The position numbers and the translations under genes are program-made. Shown one piece after another: positions 11,204-20,078 of a DNA stretch of 37,065 nucleotides (positions are counted from its first letter, which is position 1; the number at the start of each line of letters is the position of its first letter). The notes under the pieces are model-generated. The model had not been told where the DNA came from and ran no database searches. It saw only the letters and a list, made by a program, of their open reading frames with translations. The stretch comes from a virus. The DNA is taken from positions 1 through 37,065 of IMG/VR virus record IMGVR_UViG_3300025789_000087, one strand, 5' to 3'.

Positions 11204-11385
11204 TTTTTCTTTTTTGCCGATGTTTTTGCCGGTACTTTAGCCTTACGGGTTGTGGCTTTAACTACAATTTTACGTACCTTATTTGCCGCTTCTGGTGTTG
11301 GGAAAGGCCAAGGTGTAATCTCTTCTTTAGTTGGCTCAAATTTACTTAATGCCCATTTCAAGGCTTTAACTACATGCTTTTTCAT
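11200..11385 (-). CDS. Small basic protein, unknown function
   Basis: The 61-residue protein has a helical start (MKKHVVKALKWALSKFEPT), a middle with proline and tryptophan (ITPWPFPTPEAANKVRK), and a strongly basic alanine/lysine tail (KAKVPAKTSAKKKK) resembling a histone H1-like tail. It has no membrane segment or cysteine. It is linked by 4-base overlaps to the hydroxylase-like gene upstream and to the holin-like gene downstream. I do not recognise a family. Binding to nucleic acid or another polyanion is possible from the charge alone. Confidence 0.6.
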   Translation of the reverse strand: MKKHVVKALKWALSKFEPTKEEITPWPFPTPEAANKVRKIVVKATTRKAKVPAKTSAKKKK

Positions 11386-12164
11386 TTGTGTTTCCCTTTT
11401 GTTATAAAACTCTGTCTTACTGTTTCAAACTTTTCTAATAACTCTGGTTCAATTACTGCCGCATCTACGTTTTTACGGTATTCTAGGGCGTGATTTTTCA
11501 GTTCGGTTATGTCTGCATTATACCGAAAACCCTTAGTTTTGCCTTTAGTATCATAGGCATCGCAGATAATATGGTACCTGTCTTGGTCTGAATCGTTGCG
11601 AATCTGGTGCCAATTATTAACCCAAACTATATAAGCTTTGCCCGCTTGCATATGTAAATGCTGCCCATCTGAAATAAAGACGCATTTAGGATTAGTAATT
11701 AAAGGGATATGGATTCTAGCCATATACTCGCCCCCATCGGCATCTTTATGCACCAAAGACTTAGCCCCAGCTTTTAAGCAGGTAACCCTTACTCTTCTAG
11801 GGTAAAACCCTAAGTCCTCTAGCTGATTTACTATGTACGCAAATTCTCCCACACATGCTTGGGTAGGGTTCTTATGCTCCATAGAGTGCGCAATATCGAA
11901 GAATTTAAGTGCTTTAAAGTTATTATCGTTTTGTGGAAAGTAGATTTCCATCGCTTCTCCGTGGTCATTCTGGAAAAAATCCCAACCATCTCGCCAATCA
12001 CCAGTACGGGAAGTAATAGACCAGCCGCCAAAGCCATGATAAGCCGGTGTTTCATAATCTTCTCCTTGAATAATCTGCTTACCTAAAGGAAATACATGAT
12101 GTTTTAAGTTAAATAAAAGACGTGCATGGTCAATCTTTAAACAGTCAAGCTCTTCGTAAAACAT
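11382..12164 (-). CDS. Aspartyl/asparaginyl beta-hydroxylase-like Fe(II)/2-oxoglutarate oxygenase
   Basis: In this 260-residue protein, residues ~125-205 follow the aspartyl/asparaginyl beta-hydroxylase pattern (PF05118). LVHKDADGG supplies the metal ligands H139 and D141. MARIHIPLITNPKCVF (148-163) is the conserved R-x-HIPL strand. AGKAYIVWVNNWHQIRNDSDQ supplies the distal ligand H186, and R196 in DRYHII is the probable 2-oxoglutarate-binding arginine. The family hydroxylates Asp or Asn side chains in proteins, classically in cysteine-rich EGF-like domains, and some members act on amino acids or small molecules. It is coupled by a TAATG junction to a second oxygenase and is three genes from a radical SAM enzyme and a Cys/Asn-rich virion-like protein. 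The substrate is not shown by the sequence. Confidence 0.85.
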   Translation of the reverse strand: MFYEELDCLKIDHARLLFNLKHHVFPLGKQIIQGEDYETPAYHGFGGWSITSRTGDWRDGWDFFQNDHGEAMEIYFPQNDNNFKALKFFDIAHSMEHKNPTQACVGEFAYIVNQLEDLGFYPRRVRVTCLKAGAKSLVHKDADGGEYMARIHIPLITNPKCVFISDGQHLHMQAGKAYIVWVNNWHQIRNDSDQDRYHIICDAYDTKGKTKGFRYNADITELKNHALEYRKNVDAAVIEPELLEKFETVRQSFITKGKHK

Positions 12165-12730
12165 TATAGATTCCCCGTTTCATGTAACATTTGCTTTACT
12201 TCTTCATAGGTATGCTTATCCGTGCCTAGGGTAATAGCAATGCGTTCTTTTATTGGAAATATGCAATCTACTGCATGAATCTTAGTTACATCTAAAAGCC
12301 AAGCATCTCCAGGCTGGGCAATAAAATTGCCAGTGCAAACCAAATGTTTCTTATCGTATACAAAACCATTAGTTTGATTCTCAACTTGATAAGTTAATAG
12401 TGGCTCAGAATAACTTTCTAGTGGCCTGTAAAACTTGGTAATGCATAGCTCTGGCTGTATATAAAAGTTAATAGTGCATTTAATCTCGCTATCAGTATGC
12501 GGCGGAACAGCATCTTGAATTTTCATAACCGAAACAGTAAAGTCTTCTCTATATCTTCTGGGTATTACGTACAATACCCCACCTTGTTTAATATGGATGT
12601 TATGGTATGAGATAACTTCTCCATAGGAGATTTGCTCTTCTTTTTGGGTGTACTCCAGCTTTTTAAACTTCTGGTTCAGTTTTTGGAACATTTTTCCACA
12701 TTTCATATTGACGAATAATCTCGCAATCAT
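12164..12730 (-). CDS. Second Fe(II)/2-oxoglutarate oxygenase-like protein
   Basis: This protein of up to 188 residues has a double-stranded beta-helix pattern. VPPHTDSEIKCTINFYI contains H78-x-D80. GDAWLLDVTKIHAVDCIFPI contains the distal H152, and R163 in KERIAITLG is the probable 2-oxoglutarate anchor. This H-x-D...H...R layout is that of Fe(II)/2OG dioxygenases. It differs from its neighbour in sequence, so it is not a recent duplicate. The start is uncertain. The longest frame overlaps the upstream gene by 68 bases, and ATGs at codon 9 (12706) and codon 14 (12691) would cut that. No candidate has a good ribosome-binding site. Its role is probably tied to the radical SAM/Cys-rich cassette, by position only. 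Confidence 0.75.
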   Translation of the reverse strand: MIARLFVNMKCGKMFQKLNQKFKKLEYTQKEEQISYGEVISYHNIHIKQGGVLYVIPRRYREDFTVSVMKIQDAVPPHTDSEIKCTINFYIQPELCITKFYRPLESYSEPLLTYQVENQTNGFVYDKKHLVCTGNFIAQPGDAWLLDVTKIHAVDCIFPIKERIAITLGTDKHTYEEVKQMLHETGNL

Positions 12731-12998
12731 GCTCGAAGTCTATACCAGCATGGGGTCTTGCTCTAGCAGCTGCCCAAGGTTTGCCCAAGATATGCTCTAG
12801 GATTGGAATGCCAGAATGGAAAATCTTTTCTAAAACATCCGCATAATCGGTGAGCATTTGGAATAAACGTTCTTTTTCCGGTTGAGATAGCTGAAGAATA
12901 TCGTGACCCATTTGATGGTCAAAATAATGCACAACGTGCTGGCGATAGATGTCAATTTCATTAGGTTCTACTGGTGGGATTTCTGAATTTTCAATCAT
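12663..12998 (-). CDS. Hypothetical acidic helical protein in the modification cassette
   Basis: The 111-residue protein is acidic and predicted to be mostly helical (IDIYRQHVVHYFDHQMGHDI, EKERLFQMLTDYADVLEKIF). A small conserved-looking part around GKPWAAARARPHAGIDFEHD is followed by a short tail. There are several histidines but no clear metal motif, signal peptide or membrane helix. It lies between the Cys-rich protein (4-base overlap) and the second oxygenase. I do not recognise it. Possible roles are an adaptor for the modification enzymes or an unrelated morphogenesis factor. It does not look like the beta-rich winged-helix RiPP recognition element. Confidence 0.6.
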   Translation of the reverse strand: MIENSEIPPVEPNEIDIYRQHVVHYFDHQMGHDILQLSQPEKERLFQMLTDYADVLEKIFHSGIPILEHILGKPWAAARARPHAGIDFEHDCEIIRQYEMWKNVPKTEPEV

Positions 12999-13864
12999 GC
13001 TAATTTACCTTTAAAAGATGATAGTTTTTTATTGCTAGCTACCACGGCAGATGCAGCCCAATGGCTCATCCAAAATAAAGCCCACATAGTCCATAGCGTT
13101 AAGATCCGGTGACCTTTGCGGTGAGGTATATGATCAATGAAACGACTAATAGGCTTCCCAATAGCCATAAGAACCCGACCACGCAAGTTATCATTAGGAC
13201 GAGCTCCCATGAGGTATGCCATGTGTTCAGACCAAGGTATTCCAATACGCAACGCCATTTTTGTAATAGCTTCTTTTTGAGCTGCAGCACGATGTTCTTT
13301 CTTTATCCATAGGAAACAATCTGGACCTTTACCATCCATCCAAGCTGTTACAGTTCTAGCCCAACGTATATATCCTCTATATACTCTTCTGTCGTTTTTA
13401 CGCAGCATTCTACCATAGGCTTGGTCAGCTACCCAGACGTTAGGGTCCATATAGCCTTGTTCGTTTAACTTGGCACAAATAATTTTAGAGCAGTTACATG
13501 CGCAGTTACAGTTGTAAGATACAGGACCTGTTTGGCAATTATAAGTACAAGCAGTACAGTTAGTACCGGTCTGCAAATATGGTTTAGTTTGGCAGTTTAC
13601 GCAATCTACAGTCCCGGCGATGTAGCAGTTAGTACATTGGATATTGCCGCAGTTACAGTTAGATGTGCAGTTACCGTTAGAGCAGTTGCCTTGGTTAGTA
13701 TTTTGGTAATAAGTTAACCCATAGAACGCGGTAAGGCTTGGGGTAGAAACAGGAGTTAGCAATAAGCCATTAAGAAAAGACAAGCTATCTGTATATGTTG
13801 ATGGCTGTCCAATCTCTGTACTAATTTGACTGATTGATATTGTCCCTGAGCTTGGTAATGTCAT
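12995..13864 (-). CDS. Virion-like protein with 16-cysteine segment and helical C-terminal domain
   Basis: This is a 289-residue protein in three parts. Residues 1-52 (MTLPSSGTISISQISTEIG ... LTAFYGLTYY) resemble the short S/T-rich N-terminal modules of phage fibre and structural proteins. Residues 61-130 contain 16 cysteines (61, 66, 70, 72, 77, 80, 88, 91, 103, 106, 110, 119, 121, 123, 125, 130), 11 of them directly preceded by Asn, with CxxC pairs at 77/80, 88/91 and 103/106. From ~131 a helical domain follows (GYMDPNVWVADQAYGRMLRK, RGYIRWARTVTAWMDGKGPD, PWSEHMAYLMGA) and ends in a hydrophobic stretch at about 254-277. It overlaps the radical SAM gene by 4 bases (ATGA), which suggests a matched substrate. 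Metal binding or disulfides are alternatives to enzymatic crosslinking. Confidence 0.8.
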   Translation of the reverse strand: MTLPSSGTISISQISTEIGQPSTYTDSLSFLNGLLLTPVSTPSLTAFYGLTYYQNTNQGNCSNGNCTSNCNCGNIQCTNCYIAGTVDCVNCQTKPYLQTGTNCTACTYNCQTGPVSYNCNCACNCSKIICAKLNEQGYMDPNVWVADQAYGRMLRKNDRRVYRGYIRWARTVTAWMDGKGPDCFLWIKKEHRAAAQKEAITKMALRIGIPWSEHMAYLMGARPNDNLRGRVLMAIGKPISRFIDHIPHRKGHRILTLWTMWALFWMSHWAASAVVASNKKLSSFKGKLA

Positions 13865-15297
13865 GCTGCTACCCTCGATTTTCCATAGATTTCTACGTCG
13901 TCAATTTTGCCAACTACTTCGCTGACTACCTTGATAGGAATAATCTTTTTAATTGGCGTTTCTTCATGTTTAAATATTGTGCCAAATACATCTTGGCGGT
14001 CTAAGGGTAAACCCTCAGCTTTAATTAGTGTGGGTATATACCCAGTCATTTTGTATATAGATAGGGCAAATAGGGCAACATTATCAGAGTATGCATTAGC
14101 GCAAGAGATTTTCCAAAATTTGTTATCGAGGAACATACAAGCTCCTTTGCACAAATGTAAGACAGGACAAGAGGAACATTCAGCACGATTACTCCAATGT
14201 GTAGAAGTTTTAATAGCTACATCCTCATAGGCATCTAAGTTGCCACCTAAATGGGATTTTCCGTTTTTACTTGTTTCTACAGCAGATACGTTTTGACAGG
14301 TAAGAACATTGCCATGCATATCTACAGCCAGCACATGCTCATCATCCATACCGCACTTTTGACCTAAGTACTCGGCGCTAGCATGGGATAGAACCGCATT
14401 GGTAAACTGGTTGATCTTATCTAGCTGCATCTTAAATGCAATGTTGCCGTCCGTAGCAAAGATATCTGTAAAGGCTGTACGGCGGAATGTAAAGTGTTCT
14501 TGCTTGGATTGTAAAGAATTAGTTATGCCATCTTCATCGTAAGCATCCACAATCCCACCTTCACCTAGCGAAATATTAGGATCACCAGTAAGTTCACGGA
14601 ACCAGTCGGATATGGCTTTGCGGCTCTGGTTGTTTTTAGATAGCATCGAGTTAAAGCTAATGTTTTTGTTAAGGCGGGTCATCATGCGATAGAACCCTAG
14701 GATTAACTCTTTCTTTTCTGGGTCATCGAATGGGTCTGGACCTCTAACTGCTTGCCCTGGACCATCGTGTGAAATAGATACAGAAAAGTCTAGCATCATT
14801 AGCCAGTCAATAATCTCTTCAGTCAGGATAGAGCCGTTAGTAATAATAGAGAACTTAGCATAGGGGATTTTCTCCCTGATAGCTTCTGCCAACGGCTTTA
14901 GGGTTTTCCAGTAGACAAGTGGCTCGCCACCCCAGAACTCCACTTTAAGCCCATGCTGCTCATTAAACTCTAGAACCTCAAGCTTTTGTAGAAACGTTGC
15001 TACATCTTTGAATGAGGTTGATTCTGGTCTTTCTACAAACTTCTGCGAGCAGTAATCGCATGAATAGTTACAGCCCAAGCCTAGCTGGATTTTAAGCAGC
15101 TGAATATGTTTGGACTTTTTTAGGGGATGATCTTTATCAAAAGCAGTATACGGCTGATGCGCATGTTGCTGGGCTTGGTCGCCTTCTGGGTATTTAAAAA
15201 CAATCCCGTCCTCGCTCTTGAGGATATTAGTCATGTTGTCGTAGAAAAAAACTTTCTGGTCGGTACTGTTCTTTTCTGCATGGATTTCAAAGAGCAT
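13861..15297 (-). CDS. Radical SAM enzyme with SPASM domain
   Basis: The 478-residue protein has the radical SAM cluster motif C76-x3-C80-x2-C83 (GCNYSCDYC), the SAM-binding WGGEP at 122-126, and SIITNGS (150-156) on a core strand. The C-terminal SPASM region has C315, C334, then C374-x2-C377-x5-C383-x3-C387 and C399, the cysteine layout that binds auxiliary iron-sulfur clusters. SPASM proteins modify peptides or proteins: sulfatase maturation, thioether (sactipeptide/ranthipeptide) links, PQQ or mycofactocin formation. The first ~65 residues are a small N-terminal extension. The gene is joined by a 1-base overlap to a fibre gene and by 4 bases to the Cys-rich gene. All catalytic cysteines are intact. 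The substrate is inferred to be the neighbouring protein. Confidence 0.93.
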   Translation of the reverse strand: MLFEIHAEKNSTDQKVFFYDNMTNILKSEDGIVFKYPEGDQAQQHAHQPYTAFDKDHPLKKSKHIQLLKIQLGLGCNYSCDYCSQKFVERPESTSFKDVATFLQKLEVLEFNEQHGLKVEFWGGEPLVYWKTLKPLAEAIREKIPYAKFSIITNGSILTEEIIDWLMMLDFSVSISHDGPGQAVRGPDPFDDPEKKELILGFYRMMTRLNKNISFNSMLSKNNQSRKAISDWFRELTGDPNISLGEGGIVDAYDEDGITNSLQSKQEHFTFRRTAFTDIFATDGNIAFKMQLDKINQFTNAVLSHASAEYLGQKCGMDDEHVLAVDMHGNVLTCQNVSAVETSKNGKSHLGGNLDAYEDVAIKTSTHWSNRAECSSCPVLHLCKGACMFLDNKFWKISCANAYSDNVALFALSIYKMTGYIPTLIKAEGLPLDRQDVFGTIFKHEETPIKKIIPIKVVSEVVGKIDDVEIYGKSRVAA

Positions 15298-16088
15298 TAT
15301 GGGGTTCCGTATGCGGTTACGTTGCCAAGGGCAATAAAATTACCTGATGAATCTAAAGAGCCTACGTTAGTGCCGTTGTAGTTAAAATAAAGTTTAGTCC
15401 CTGATGGAGTAACGCTCCAGCCACCAGAGTTAGCAATGTTTTTAGCGCTGGCAACAGATGTAATGGCGTTGATTTGGTTGTTTACAAAAGCGGTATTGGC
15501 TGCCTTAGTTGAGCTATCGCCAGTTGACTGAGTTGGTACAGTTGTGGTGCTATTAAAGGTTGCGGTGCCGTTAAAAGTTGCAGTGCCGGTATGGGTGGTT
15601 GTGCCAGTAAAAGTTGAGTTACCAGTAACCCCTAAAGAGCCACCTACTGTTTCATTACCAGTTACAGCCCAGCTACCAGCAGTTCCAGTATTACCGCTAT
15701 AGAAATTAATGCCATCACAATAAACCGTTGCAGTAACGCCGTTAGGGATTGTTACAGTTGAGCCAGTAGTACCACCAATAGTGATTGAATATCCGCCAGT
15801 AGTATTATTAAATACAATGTATTGCTTATTAACTAGTGGGGCAATTACCTGATAAATAGCGCTGTTTGTGCCTTGAATAACCAAAACTGGGTTACGAGCC
15901 TCGTCTAGGGTACCGTTGTAATTTGACAACGAATAGTTGGCATTGGTCATTGTGATGTATTGAACACCAGTAATAGCCTGTTCTAGCAATGCACCTAAGT
16001 TATTATTAGTCGTGTTTCCCCATACTCCAGACTGGTCTCCACTACCGATTAGTTCGAGTTTTAATGATGTTGAGTATGTTGATGCCAT
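15297..16088 (-). CDS. Tail fibre/adhesin-like structural protein
   Basis: The 263-residue protein starts MASTYSTSLKLELIGSGDQSG then VWGNTTNNNLGALLEQAITG, an N-terminus I recognise as common in phage fibre proteins that attach to the tail. Beta-rich G/T/N sequence follows. A short repetitive shaft (GTATFNGTATFNSTTTVP, about 168-185) precedes a helix beginning STKAANTAFV, near 195, typical of fibre linkers, and a small C-terminal beta module (FNYNGTNVGSLDSSGNF). No enzyme motif is visible. It lies between the large repeat-containing adhesin and the radical SAM gene. The fibre role is inferred from composition and context. Confidence 0.8.
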   Translation of the reverse strand: MASTYSTSLKLELIGSGDQSGVWGNTTNNNLGALLEQAITGVQYITMTNANYSLSNYNGTLDEARNPVLVIQGTNSAIYQVIAPLVNKQYIVFNNTTGGYSITIGGTTGSTVTIPNGVTATVYCDGINFYSGNTGTAGSWAVTGNETVGGSLGVTGNSTFTGTTTHTGTATFNGTATFNSTTTVPTQSTGDSSTKAANTAFVNNQINAITSVASAKNIANSGGWSVTPSGTKLYFNYNGTNVGSLDSSGNFIALGNVTAYGTP

Positions 16089-16097
16089 GTTTTATCC

Positions 16098-19000
16098 TTA
16101 TGGATAGTTGTTATTAACTTTAGTCCAAACTACTGTTTGTCCGTCATTGATATCTGTCCAAACTGCTGTATTTCCGTTGTTTACTGCGTTCCATGAACCC
16201 GTTTGGCTATCATCAATTTTAAACCAACCACGTGGGAATGGGCTATCTAATAATACCAAATTCTCGGCTATTTGACTACTAAACGAAGCGATAACGGTAA
16301 TTGAATCGGCTGGAACTAAGTTTTCTGAAATAAGTCCTGCAAAGACCGCCTTAACCGTCTCGGCATCAGCTACAGAAAGGTTTTCGGTAATAGCGGAATT
16401 AAAGATTTTTACTACTACGCTGGAATCAGCTGCAGTCAGCGCTTCGGAAATACTGGATGCAAAGCTGGCTAATACCACCTCAATATCCGCAATACTACTA
16501 CCCTCAGACACAGCAACAGCAAAATTAGCCGCTACAGACTCGGTTTCAGCAATGCCAACCCCTTCAAAAATTAAGCTGGCAAAGGTGGCTACGACTGTTT
16601 GGGAGTCGGCTAGGGTTATAGCTTCAGAAATATTGGTACTAAAAACAAGAGAAACTGATTGAGCATCAGCTAAAGTAGCAGCCTCGGTAATCAATGCTGC
16701 AAAAGCAGCTACGGCAGACTCGGTATCGGCAATTTGAGTATCTTCGCTAATTACGGCAGCAAAGTTGGCTACCCCTGTTTCGGTGTCAGCTAGGATTACG
16801 GGTTCTGTTATGGTTGGGGCAAAAAGCCCTATTCCTGTTTCTGTATCGTCTAAGTTAGCGTTTTCTGTAATTGCTGCGACAAAAGCGGTTACTACTGTTT
16901 CTAAATCAGCTACGGATAAAGCCTCGGAAATCGCTGCCGAGAATGTGGCGATTAAAGATTCTGTGTCTTCTTCCGCAAGGATGGCTTCTGTAATAGATAC
17001 TGAGAACGTAGCAATTAAAGACTCAATATCTTCTTCTGCCAGAATAGCTTCAGTAATGGCGGTAATAAAGCTAGCTACAGCTGATGGGGTATCGTCTGGG
17101 TTTATATTTTCAGATATAGCACTAGCAAAGGCAGCTACTACATCTTGCGTGTCCGCAACAGTTAAGGCTTCAGAAACAGTATAAGCAAAGGTAGCTAGGA
17201 CAGACTCGGAGTCAGCTAGAGTATTGGGTTCTGAGATTTGCGTAGAAAATGAGGCAGCGGCTGATTCTGCATCGCTTATGGTATAAGTTTCAGAAATTGC
17301 GCTGTTAAATGAAGCAGTTACCGATTCAGTGTCGGCTATGTTTGCGTTTTCGGATATAGCGCTTAAAAAAGCTGCAATTACAGTTTGGGTATCAGCAATC
17401 CCAGCGTTTTCAGTAATGGCTCCAGCAAAAGCGGTTACAACCGACTGCGCATCAGCAATATTTAAGGCTTCTGTTATAGCAGATGAGAATGTTGCAATTA
17501 AAGACTCAGTGTCGGTTTCCGCTGTAATAGCTTCGGTAATAGCTACGCTAAATGTTGCAATTAAAGATTCGGTATCAGCTTCGGAAAGAATTGCCTCGGA
17601 TATAGCCGCAGCAAAAGCAGCTATGATGGACTCGGTGTCACCTGCTGTTATGGCTTCTGAAATAGAAGATGCAAAAATTGTAGCTGCATTAGGGGTATCT
17701 GTTAAATTTGTGCTTTCAGATACGCTATTATTGTTAAAAGTTGCGTTACCTACGTTGCTGTCCGCTAAGGTATTGTCTTCTGATATATCCGAGTTAAATG
17801 AAGCGGTTGTAGTTGGGGTATCAGCTAGGGTGTTCGATTCAGAAATGTTGCTTGAGAAACTAGCTAGTACAGACATTAAGTCTGCAATAGTAAACGCTTC
17901 TGTAATAGCTCCTGTATAAGCCGTTCCAAAACTATAAATAATAAAGATTGCGCCTTGGGACCCAGCACCGCCAGCAGTTACGGCGCCAAGAGCGGTTGCT
18001 CCACCCCCTGACCCACCGCCACCATATAAACCCGTATTTGAAGTACCAGCTCCATATCCGCTGCCTCCAGCGCCACCTGCTCCGCCCACCGTATTAGCAA
18101 TGTCTACTCCCGAACCACCCAAGGTACCAGAAGCTCCGTTACTGCCTCCAGCGCCACCACCACCAAGTTTTCCGTTTCCAGTTCCTGACCCGCCACCAGT
18201 TCCACTAAAATTATTACCGCCCGAACCGCCACCACTCCCTAGAGCGTTGCCGCCAGTAGAACCTCCGCCGTTACCACCTCCGCCTCCGCCAGCTACGGTT
18301 GCAGTAGTGCTACTATCTCCGTTACCGCCTTTACCACCTCCTCCGTTGGGACCTCCAGCGCCACCACCACCACCAGAACCAGTATATGTAAAAGTGACTG
18401 TTGTAGTAGCGCCAGCACCGCCAGCACCGCCAACAAAAGTTCCTGTGCCACCAGCACCGCCCGCAGATGTTGGAGTTGTAGTTGCCGTTCCTTTTTGACC
18501 TCCACCAGCAATATTAGTTGTATTAAAAGTGGTGTTTCCGCCGTTAGTATCAGCCGCCCCGCCAGAACCGATTGCATAAGGTATTGATGCCCCAACAGTT
18601 AATGATTGGTTAGATAAGCGCCTATAACCACCACCACCGCCGCCGCCACCACCAGCTTGAGTGCTTGCGGATGATACGCTAGTTGCTCCTCCCCCTCCCC
18701 CTCCAATTAAATAAATTGAGTTGTTGCTATTATTCCAACCAGAAGGGACGGTCCAAGAAGTTCCTGAGGTTAATAAATACGCCGTATTGGATGTTGGTTG
18801 AAACAATATGCCAGCATTATTACCGCCATTTGTAGAGCTTACACCACCATAAACAAGGTAAGGATTTGATGGGCCTAAAGTATAGGAAAAGTTAATATCA
18901 GTAATGGACATATAGTCCATAGATATTGTTCCACTACCTGTGTAAATAAATGTTCTTTGTGTTCCTACAACAGATGAGTTTACAGTTACTATATTTCCAG

Positions 19001-20078
19001 CAGTTCCAGTTATAGTCCAGTTGTTTATGCGTGTTCCGTTTGCAGTATTTGTGATTGTGTGGGCTACTGTTTTTGTACTTGCTAATGTTCCTATAGTTGC
19101 TGTTGTATTTGCAAAAGTTGTTGTTGATGTTGCAGTTGCACCACCAATAGTCAAAGTATTATAAGTTAAACTACCGCCAGAAAATTGTCTGCTAGTTGTT
19201 GAGTTATTACTTAAAATAATATTGGGGCTAGCAGTAAATGTAAGTCCCGTTGTTGTGGTTGTATCCCAAACAATACCAGTACCACTTAATGACCAAGTGC
19301 CAGAACCCATAGTTAAGGTTCTTGTGTTGGAGTTTGTACTACTAAATAATCCGACAGTTACGTTCTTATTATTAGCGTCAAATGTGCCGTTGGTTAAGGT
19401 TAAAGTCCTTGTAGAACCTAGTATTAAGTCGTCTACTAACTGAATTGTGCCACCAACTCCGTTAATAGTAATTGGAAAGTCTAGTGTTTTATTATTGCTA
19501 GTAATTGTTTGTGTGCCTGATGTGGCGGCAAAAGTTGTAGTATTTGCACCGCCAGTCAAAGTCATTCCTGTGGAAATAATTAAATTTCCATATATTGTTC
19601 TAGTAGAGTTTACAAGTGTTCCACTAAAGCCAGTAAGGTCTAAATTTTTTATGCTTGAGCTTATTGTTAAAGAGCCAGTACCAGCTGTAACATTAAAACT
19701 AATAGCATTAGCTTCTGTAACTGCGGCAGGAACTATTGTTTTTGAAGCTGTACTTGAATCTGTGCAATTAATTACTGGTGTTCCTGTTACAGAATAATTT
19801 GTTGCTCCTGTAAATATTGTTGCTGTACCAGCTAATGAAATATTCTGTGTGCCAAATGCTAATGTTCCTGTAAACCCTGTCATTGTCAGAGTTGAAATAG
19901 TGGGGTTATAACCGCTACCTAAAGTAACAGTATTAGCACCTGAATTGGCATCAAAGAAAACAGTATCAGCAGAAGTAGGGACAGCTTGACCACCAGCACC
20001 ACCAGTAGTCAATGCCCATTTAGAACCAGCAGTAGCATCCCAAGATGCAGTTCCACCAACCCAATATCTAGCCGCCAT
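16098..20078 (-). CDS. Giant tail adhesin with glycine-rich region and ~20-residue repeats (copy A)
   Basis: This 1326-residue protein is the largest complete gene here. Its N-terminus (MAARYWVGGTASWDA, PTSADTVFFDANSG) and a beta-helix-like T/N/G region run to about residue 430. A PSGWNNSNNSIYLIGGGGGG segment then opens a very glycine-rich part (436-715). About 27 full copies of a ~20-residue repeat (consensus SAISEALTIADTESVVATF) follow, and a short W/N-rich end closes with several TxxW units. Glycine-rich polyGly tips and long repeats are typical of receptor-binding adhesins on tails. It is paralogous to the gene at 20249-22747. The gene overlaps the small upstream gene by a TAATG junction. 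Adhesin function is inferred. Confidence 0.85.
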   Translation of the reverse strand: MAARYWVGGTASWDATAGSKWALTTGGAGGQAVPTSADTVFFDANSGANTVTLGSGYNPTISTLTMTGFTGTLAFGTQNISLAGTATIFTGATNYSVTGTPVINCTDSSTASKTIVPAAVTEANAISFNVTAGTGSLTISSSIKNLDLTGFSGTLVNSTRTIYGNLIISTGMTLTGGANTTTFAATSGTQTITSNNKTLDFPITINGVGGTIQLVDDLILGSTRTLTLTNGTFDANNKNVTVGLFSSTNSNTRTLTMGSGTWSLSGTGIVWDTTTTTGLTFTASPNIILSNNSTTSRQFSGGSLTYNTLTIGGATATSTTTFANTTATIGTLASTKTVAHTITNTANGTRINNWTITGTAGNIVTVNSSVVGTQRTFIYTGSGTISMDYMSITDINFSYTLGPSNPYLVYGGVSSTNGGNNAGILFQPTSNTAYLLTSGTSWTVPSGWNNSNNSIYLIGGGGGGATSVSSASTQAGGGGGGGGGYRRLSNQSLTVGASIPYAIGSGGAADTNGGNTTFNTTNIAGGGQKGTATTTPTSAGGAGGTGTFVGGAGGAGATTTVTFTYTGSGGGGGAGGPNGGGGKGGNGDSSTTATVAGGGGGGNGGGSTGGNALGSGGGSGGNNFSGTGGGSGTGNGKLGGGGAGGSNGASGTLGGSGVDIANTVGGAGGAGGSGYGAGTSNTGLYGGGGSGGGATALGAVTAGGAGSQGAIFIIYSFGTAYTGAITEAFTIADLMSVLASFSSNISESNTLADTPTTTASFNSDISEDNTLADSNVGNATFNNNSVSESTNLTDTPNAATIFASSISEAITAGDTESIIAAFAAAISEAILSEADTESLIATFSVAITEAITAETDTESLIATFSSAITEALNIADAQSVVTAFAGAITENAGIADTQTVIAAFLSAISENANIADTESVTASFNSAISETYTISDAESAAASFSTQISEPNTLADSESVLATFAYTVSEALTVADTQDVVAAFASAISENINPDDTPSAVASFITAITEAILAEEDIESLIATFSVSITEAILAEEDTESLIATFSAAISEALSVADLETVVTAFVAAITENANLDDTETGIGLFAPTITEPVILADTETGVANFAAVISEDTQIADTESAVAAFAALITEAATLADAQSVSLVFSTNISEAITLADSQTVVATFASLIFEGVGIAETESVAANFAVAVSEGSSIADIEVVLASFASSISEALTAADSSVVVKIFNSAITENLSVADAETVKAVFAGLISENLVPADSITVIASFSSQIAENLVLLDSPFPRGWFKIDDSQTGSWNAVNNGNTAVWTDINDGQTVVWTKVNNNYP
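16236..17921 (-). repeat. Array of ~28 degenerate ~60-bp coding repeats
   Basis: Within the copy-A adhesin, 27 full units and one partial unit of about 20 residues follow one another. Nearly every unit has I(S/T)E near the start, an AD or ADT(E/Q)S core and a closing phenylalanine (VATF, VAAF). Three neighbouring pairs carry an extra residue and read EAILAEEDTESLIATF-like, so they look like recent local copies. Most units differ by several residues, so the array is old and under protein-level selection. It is not a CRISPR or a tandem DNA satellite. Confidence 0.9.

Follow-up and report, generated by a model that had tools for sequence, protein, structure and literature searches.

The question raised by this locus is why a phage protein carries a dense run of cysteines, most of them directly preceded by asparagine, and why its gene overlaps that of a radical SAM/SPASM enzyme. 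The DNA analysed, here called the window, is one virus record of 37,065 bases. Its genes lie mostly on the minus strand and match head, portal, tail-fibre, endolysin and other virion families; thus, the virus is a tailed phage. The features around the cysteine-rich segment are as follows.

12995..13864, minus strand: P0001, the core protein, a putative modified fibre-type protein of 289 amino acids (open reading frame; 80 related viral loci)
13688..13864, minus strand: N-terminal part of P0001, residues 1–59, fibre-like by resemblance only (homologue alignment)
13475..13687, minus strand: Asn-Cys core of P0001, residues 60–130, with Asn directly before 11 of its 16 Cys (counts, alignment)
13490..13513, minus strand: alternating array NCNCACNC, residues 118–125, the element common to distant relatives
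12998..13489, minus strand: predicted helical tip domain, residues 126–289, exchanged for other ends in relatives (structure model)
13861..15297, minus strand: P0002, radical SAM/SPASM enzyme of 478 amino acids, overlapping the core gene (PF04055, PHROG 1802, SPASM cysteines, CteB-like fold)
12663..12998, minus strand: P0003, a small protein without known function, overlapping the core gene (homologue in 64 of the loci searched)
12164..12730, minus strand: P0004, probable 2-oxoglutarate Fe(II) oxygenase, a tentative assignment (conserved HxD...H...R only)
11382..12164, minus strand: P0005, aspartyl/asparaginyl beta-hydroxylase-like oxygenase (PF05118, 3e-11)
15297..16088, minus strand: P0006, tail-fibre-like protein directly upstream of P0002 (phrog_12796 tail fibre, 2e-5; phrog_31104, 6e-14)

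The P0002 gene lies directly upstream of the P0001 gene, with an overlap of 4 bases, and the genes for P0003, P0004 and P0005 follow downstream of the core gene, also overlapping; these overlaps suggest one translationally coupled set. P0003 has no Pfam or PHROG family match. P0004 has no Pfam match, and its residues H78xD80...H152...R163 are kept in at least 90% of homologues; comparing its profile with those of the other oxygenase families lent the assignment no further support. In P0005, the residues expected of a 2-oxoglutarate oxygenase are present and conserved (H139xD141...H186...R196). Elsewhere in the window (16098–20078), a protein of 1326 amino acids contains a Gly-rich region and, after it, numerous degenerate repeats of the type ISEAxTLADxxSVxASF; it has no PHROG match.

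A reading made from the sequence alone had described 13475–13684 (minus strand; residues 61–130 of P0001) as a 70-residue segment with 16 cysteines, 11 of them in Asn-Cys dipeptides. The count bears this out (16 Cys and 12 Asn), with ten of the dipeptides lying wholly inside the segment and the eleventh using Asn60, one codon beyond it. The preference for Asn before Cys, also pointed out in that reading, is equally real: when residues 60–130 were shuffled 100,000 times, the mean number of Asn-Cys dipeptides was 2.9 and the maximum was 10, against 11 observed. The cysteine spacing, which had been called irregular, is in part regular, being composed of alternating xC runs (NCNC, NCNCACNC) and CxxC pairs. 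The core had also been placed between a fibre-like N-terminus and a helical domain. The position is correct in this protein, and the structure model predicts a helical domain from about residue 126, whose last element is a long, partly hydrophobic helix, but the N-terminal part has no Pfam or PHROG family match behind its fibre-like character. The core itself has no match in Pfam, PHROG or NCBIfam, its predicted fold has a pLDDT below 50, and a Foldseek search with P0001 gave no significant PDB match. The end of the tip domain (window 13040–13096) is a hydrophobic, tryptophan-rich helix, LWTMWALFWMSHWAASAVV, which could be membrane-active.

A scan of viral contigs with P0001 yielded 80 related loci. 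An alignment of homologues, which the sequence-only reading had proposed, revealed that Cys and the Asn preceding it are the most conserved residues of the core while others vary: across 39 aligned homologues, the most frequent residue of a position has an average frequency of 0.92 at Cys, 0.91 at Asn before Cys, and 0.65 at other core positions. When the window was compared with 15 homologues, the non-synonymous difference at Asn and Cys codons was 0–0.04, with synonymous sites near saturation past the closest relatives, whereas other core positions differ by approximately 0.2–0.4 beyond those relatives. Thus, the core is constrained at exactly Asn and Cys. The opposite outcome, cysteines that vary in number and placement without conservation, was not found: the number of core cysteines does range from approximately 13 to 25 among homologues, via insertions and deletions, yet their positions are kept in the 39 aligned sequences. 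At the X position of the alternating xC arrays, 213 distinct arrays have Asn 655 times, Ala 157 times, Asp 56 times and other residues 47 times.

Short repeated hexamers are present in the DNA, as they would be if the Asn-Cys run were a functionless product of slippage or low complexity. However, the codons of the P0001 core are mixed (AAC 10 and AAT 2; TGC 9 and TGT 7), so the core is not a DNA microsatellite, and the codons of the arrays across relatives are mixed as well (AAC 444 and AAT 211; TGC 512 and TGT 407). This explanation was rejected because of the mixed codons together with near-zero amino-acid change where synonymous sites are saturated, and its probability is negligible.

The enzyme encoded beside the core belongs to the radical SAM/SPASM enzymes. 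P0002 matches PF04055 (3e-11) and PHROG 1802 (2e-60); the cysteines of its CX3CX2C motif (C76, C80, C83) and of a seven-cysteine SPASM motif (C315, C334, C374, C377, C383, C387, C399) are invariant in 44 homologues; and four of its relatives (L096, L136, L152, L082) score above the cut-off of TIGR04085. A cysteine-rich candidate substrate, which marks a radical SAM/SPASM maturase, is encoded close by. Within NCBIfam, the best score of P0002 is for a QhpD-type model (E 9e-22), at 77 bits against a cut-off of 453; the scores for the PapB model NF047865 (76.9 bits against 340), the SCIFF model TIGR03974 (46.7 against 425) and the curated sulfatase-maturase model (46.6 against 349) are likewise below threshold, and divergent relatives also fall far short with the QhpD-type and PapB models. 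Thus, P0002 represents a subfamily without an NCBIfam assignment. The label “ranthipeptide” was considered and not adopted, since the scores fall far short of what the curated models require. The structure model of P0002 (pLDDT 92) has its best structural matches in CteB (Z 23.4), ChlB (20.0), anSME (19.2) and TigE (17.5), all of them SPASM-type enzymes that modify proteins or peptides. Residues 1–58 of the model consist of strands without helices, and no canonical RRE is seen in it; the alignment with CteB nonetheless begins at residue 1.

These structural matches bear on what the enzyme might do. Some other radical modification can be envisaged, e.g., epimerisation of alternate residues to give an alternating L/D strand and hence a beta-helix needle. 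Modification of every second residue would suit the strict X/Cys alternation of the arrays, and the epimerase EpeE is among the matches; however, its Z of 12.8 is well below those of CteB, ChlB and anSME, the target would be X although Cys is the invariant residue of the array, and the core in the window alternates only partly. We consider this kind of modification unlikely. Oxidation of the array cysteines to aldehydes (formylglycine), as carried out by anaerobic sulfatase maturases, would allow covalent bonds to the host surface. It draws on the close match to anSME and on the annotation of a P0002 relative, in Achromobacter phage JWF, as an anaerobic sulfatase-maturating enzyme; yet the score with the curated sulfatase-maturase model falls far short of the threshold, we know of no resemblance of the array to a sulfatase site, and the preference for Asn before Cys would be left without explanation, which makes this chemistry highly improbable. 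The reading preferred here is RiPP-like maturation of the Asn-Cys core by the phage radical SAM/SPASM enzyme.

Starting from the core, a homologue of the enzyme is found in 79 of 81 loci, the window included; the two remaining loci are a truncated contig (L054) and one in which only the tip domain was matched (L077). Starting from the enzyme, a profile built from 30 sequences retrieved 79 loci in bacterial genomes, including those of Limnohabitans, Polynucleobacter, Variovorax, Rhodobacteraceae, Rhodospirillaceae and Magnetospirillum (identities 31–58%), and further viral loci. At most of the bacterial loci, a gene with an alternating array lies on the same strand, usually 0.6–3 kb upstream of the enzyme, and the array is commonly at the extreme C-terminus of the gene product (e.g. 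FNCNCNCRC, YNCNCDCNCC). For 176 distinct enzymes, an xCxCxC array containing Asn-Cys was sought within 4 kb, the loci being scored where flanks were sufficient. In order of falling enzyme score, an array was present at 46/56, 25/26, 16/17 and 9/15 flank-complete loci, and all ten misses in the top class have a homologous core with shorter NCNC runs. The xCxCxC pattern occurred on the antisense strand at 14 of the 176 loci. No array was found near the divergent enzymes of L148–L151, which may belong to a different system.

The association was also approached without using the enzyme, by searching for DNA able to encode NCNCxCNC, which gave 119 viral loci. Among those with full flanks, a same-strand enzyme accompanies 21 of 23 distinct in-frame motifs and 1 of 35 out-of-frame motifs (p 1.6e-12, a value in which shared ancestry overstates independence); under a looser flank rule, the enzyme is present at 42 of 44 in-frame loci. 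Of the two in-frame loci without the enzyme, L336 is apparently a spurious frame and L322 codes for a small protein that is unrelated. The latter (L322:6685-6867) opens with MNLNCNCDCNCDDW and has a CPWC pair, and its 12-kb locus contains no radical SAM gene. A DUF4815 protein of 2081 amino acids (L306:3914-10156) contains NCNCACNCACDC as an internal array; its locus, in which the downstream flank is only approximately 0.7 kb long, shows no enzyme.

Does the enzyme follow the core or the tip domain? Tip domains were searched for, and the segment preceding each was classed as Asn-Cys core or as other, mostly Pro/Gly-rich, linker. The enzyme is present at 9/9 loci where a core precedes the tip and at 0/28 evaluable loci where another linker does (p 8e-9, again with independence overstated by shared ancestry); thus, the enzyme tracks the core and not the tip domain. 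Other phage proteins carry this tip domain (KIICxKL...) behind linkers of poly-Pro, poly-Arg or poly-Gly and have neither core nor enzyme (L084:2669-4519; L364-L411); at L405 and L424, it follows the apparent end of a Hint or intein-type domain. Oxygenases belonging to the families represented in the window are present at 55/56 window-type loci, 38/55 prophage loci and 5/10 core loci without a tip, compared with 0/41 loci that have the tip without the core and 1/43 control contigs. Since the loci share ancestry, the wide divergence of the enzymes and the variety of fibre scaffolds are a better argument than the p-values: the pairing of enzyme and repeat recurs across many phages and prophages, with relatives down to about 31% identity. 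As far as sequence comparison can establish them, the conservation of Cys and Asn, the family of the enzyme and its specific association with the array are established.

These distributions also bear on whether the array is modified at all. The sequence-only reading had offered three options for the segment: a RiPP-like crosslinked core, a disulfide-rich knot or a metal-binding adhesin loop. In an unmodified array, alternate cysteines could bind metal along a trimeric fibre or form disulfides, with the enzyme serving something else nearby. In a strand, alternating CxC brings the thiols to the same side, arrays lie at fibre ends, and metal ions are bound by HxH motifs in the tip of the long tail fibre of phage T4. 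However, the enzyme tracks the array and not the tip domain or the fibre type, neither metal binding nor disulfides need such an enzyme, and the conservation of Asn would go unexplained; we regard an unmodified array as quite improbable. Of the three options, the disulfide knot and the plain metal site leave the enzyme unaccounted for, and the RiPP-like core is favoured by the genomic evidence, i.e., by an overlapping radical SAM/SPASM gene that tracks the array in both search directions and by the accompanying oxygenases.

RiPP-like maturation by P0002 is thus the best reading overall and a likely one. From the associations described above we infer that modification occurs, what its chemistry is and what it is for. 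The array is very probably the substrate of the enzyme. The adjacent enzyme would modify the cysteine-rich stretch, and the remainder of the fibre-type protein would act as leader or scaffold. In the most likely reaction, Cys sulfurs would be linked to carbons in the side chains of nearby Asn (or Asp) residues, so that a compact element with many thioethers results, and the 2-oxoglutarate oxygenases would probably hydroxylate the same region. A Cys-Asn/Asp thioether is the most economical chemistry because CteB, PapB and QhpD make thioethers from Cys to side chains and because a Cys-Asn S-Cbeta link has a precedent (PMC11002830). Cys-Asp links are made by PapB and by QhpD, the latter working on a whole protein (PMC8172795), and the target of TvgB, a single radical SAM enzyme, is a repeated motif (PMC9062424). 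Ala at the X position in 157/915 cases does not fit a simple rule of Asn/Asp as acceptor, and thioethers specifically are given a little under an even chance of being the product. Also counting against the maturation reading are the lack of a canonical RRE, the array-less loci L148–L151, and the presence of oxygenases at only 5/10 cores without a tip.

The position of the array within its proteins points to where the matured element would be used. In 141 paired loci, the array lies at most 12 residues from the C-terminus in 61, before a helical tip in 56, before Hint in 8 and before S74 in 1; most of the 15 unclassed loci also have it before a helical tip. The part following the core is exchanged among homologues of P0001: most have the helical tip domain, and others end at the core (L069, L071, L073-L076, L078-L080). 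By Pfam, an S74 chaperone domain follows the array directly in L068 and L308, and Hint models, some of them below cut-offs, begin at the last Cys of the array in JWF, L152, L153, L157 and L161. S74 and Hint domains are known for cleaving themselves off. After such cleavage, the protein would end in the array, and three unrelated architectures would thus arrive at the same end state. Window-type proteins differ: in them, the array lies where the tip domain is joined on. The matured element, at the fibre end or at this joint, would form a hard, protease-resistant tip or a receptor-contact surface; a tip or adhesin role is about evenly balanced with other roles. In a broader view, which may equally well hold or fail, these proteins would form a class of virion proteins that is widespread and bears, at the fibre ends, an (Asn-Cys)n polymer cross-linked by radical SAM/SPASM enzymes and oxygenases, exposed by S74 or Hint cleavage in several lineages.

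Judged by its sequences, the system would work like RiPP maturation and resembles the ranthipeptide systems (CteB/thermocellin, PapB/freyrasin, and the streptococcal Cys-Asn S-Cbeta peptide) in having a radical SAM/SPASM enzyme beside a cysteine-rich substrate, in the fold of P0002, which is nearest to CteB, and in that both Asp and Asn have precedents as S-Cbeta acceptors (PMC8172795, PMC11002830). It differs in that the substrate is a phage fibre-type protein with an alternating NC array instead of a short precursor peptide, in lacking a canonical RRE, and in reaching no NCBIfam cut-off. In the maturation of quinohemoprotein amine dehydrogenase (QhpD/QhpC), several Cys-Asp/Glu thioethers are put into a protein subunit by a radical SAM enzyme (PMC8172795). 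That enzyme is the one whose model gives P0002 its best NCBIfam score, although 77 bits is far from 453, and its substrate is a subunit of a host enzyme and not a virion protein. TvgB resembles P0002 in that one enzyme would act on a repeated short motif, and TigE is a structural match, but the motif of TvgA, TVGG, has no Cys and the product is cyclopropylglycine. We know of no NC array in the QhpD/QhpC system, nor of any phage that builds its fibres by means of radical SAM chemistry. PHROG 1802 groups phage radical SAM proteins and annotates the enzyme of Achromobacter phage 2-1; it comes without substrate, function or fibre pairing. The closest earlier remark found is that radical SAM cassettes distinguish the host recognition clusters (tail-fibre region) of two pelagimyophages (PMC7029224); the likeness noted is one of position, and the passages on these cassettes propose no substrate or mechanism. 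In the open-access literature, to which the search was confined with most subscription papers and preprints outside its scope, no enzyme-paired Asn-Cys phage fibre was found described. The pairing suggests that phages chemically harden or decorate the ends of their fibres in a manner so far undescribed. If this is true, RiPP-type enzymes make part of the apparatus by which phages contact their hosts, which could account for many radical SAM and oxygenase genes that stand without assignment in the tail regions of phages, and a new source of enzymes for cross-linking whole proteins would be at hand.

Cultured examples are provided by Achromobacter phages JWF and 2-1, whose enzymes are about 45% identical to P0002. 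The fibre gene lies two genes upstream of the enzyme, with NCNCDCNCNCSC in JWF, or NCNCDCNCSC in 2-1, fused directly to a Hint domain. The text on a relative of JWF (PMC9959647) mentions neither cysteine nor tail fibre. The two array-Hint tail fibres are:

L082:5793-7244: PJWF_00028, array-Hint tail fibre of Achromobacter phage JWF
L083:5802-7244: array-Hint tail fibre of Achromobacter phage 2-1

Other genes accompany the pair at some of the related loci. A conserved family of approximately 278 amino acids, without a Pfam match among the members scanned, is encoded between fibre and enzyme at 33 prophage loci (L089-L161, e.g. L096:8399-9253); its members could take part in recognition or assembly. 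Three loci (L121:8702-9787, L143:4361-5428, L161:8504-9571) have, in addition to the main enzyme gene, a different radical SAM gene situated between that gene and the fibre gene. On a contig of Parasutterella muris (L163:6680-8073), three consecutive genes with CxxC or NCTTVNC repeats lie upstream of an enzyme that is among the most divergent of the radical SAM relatives.
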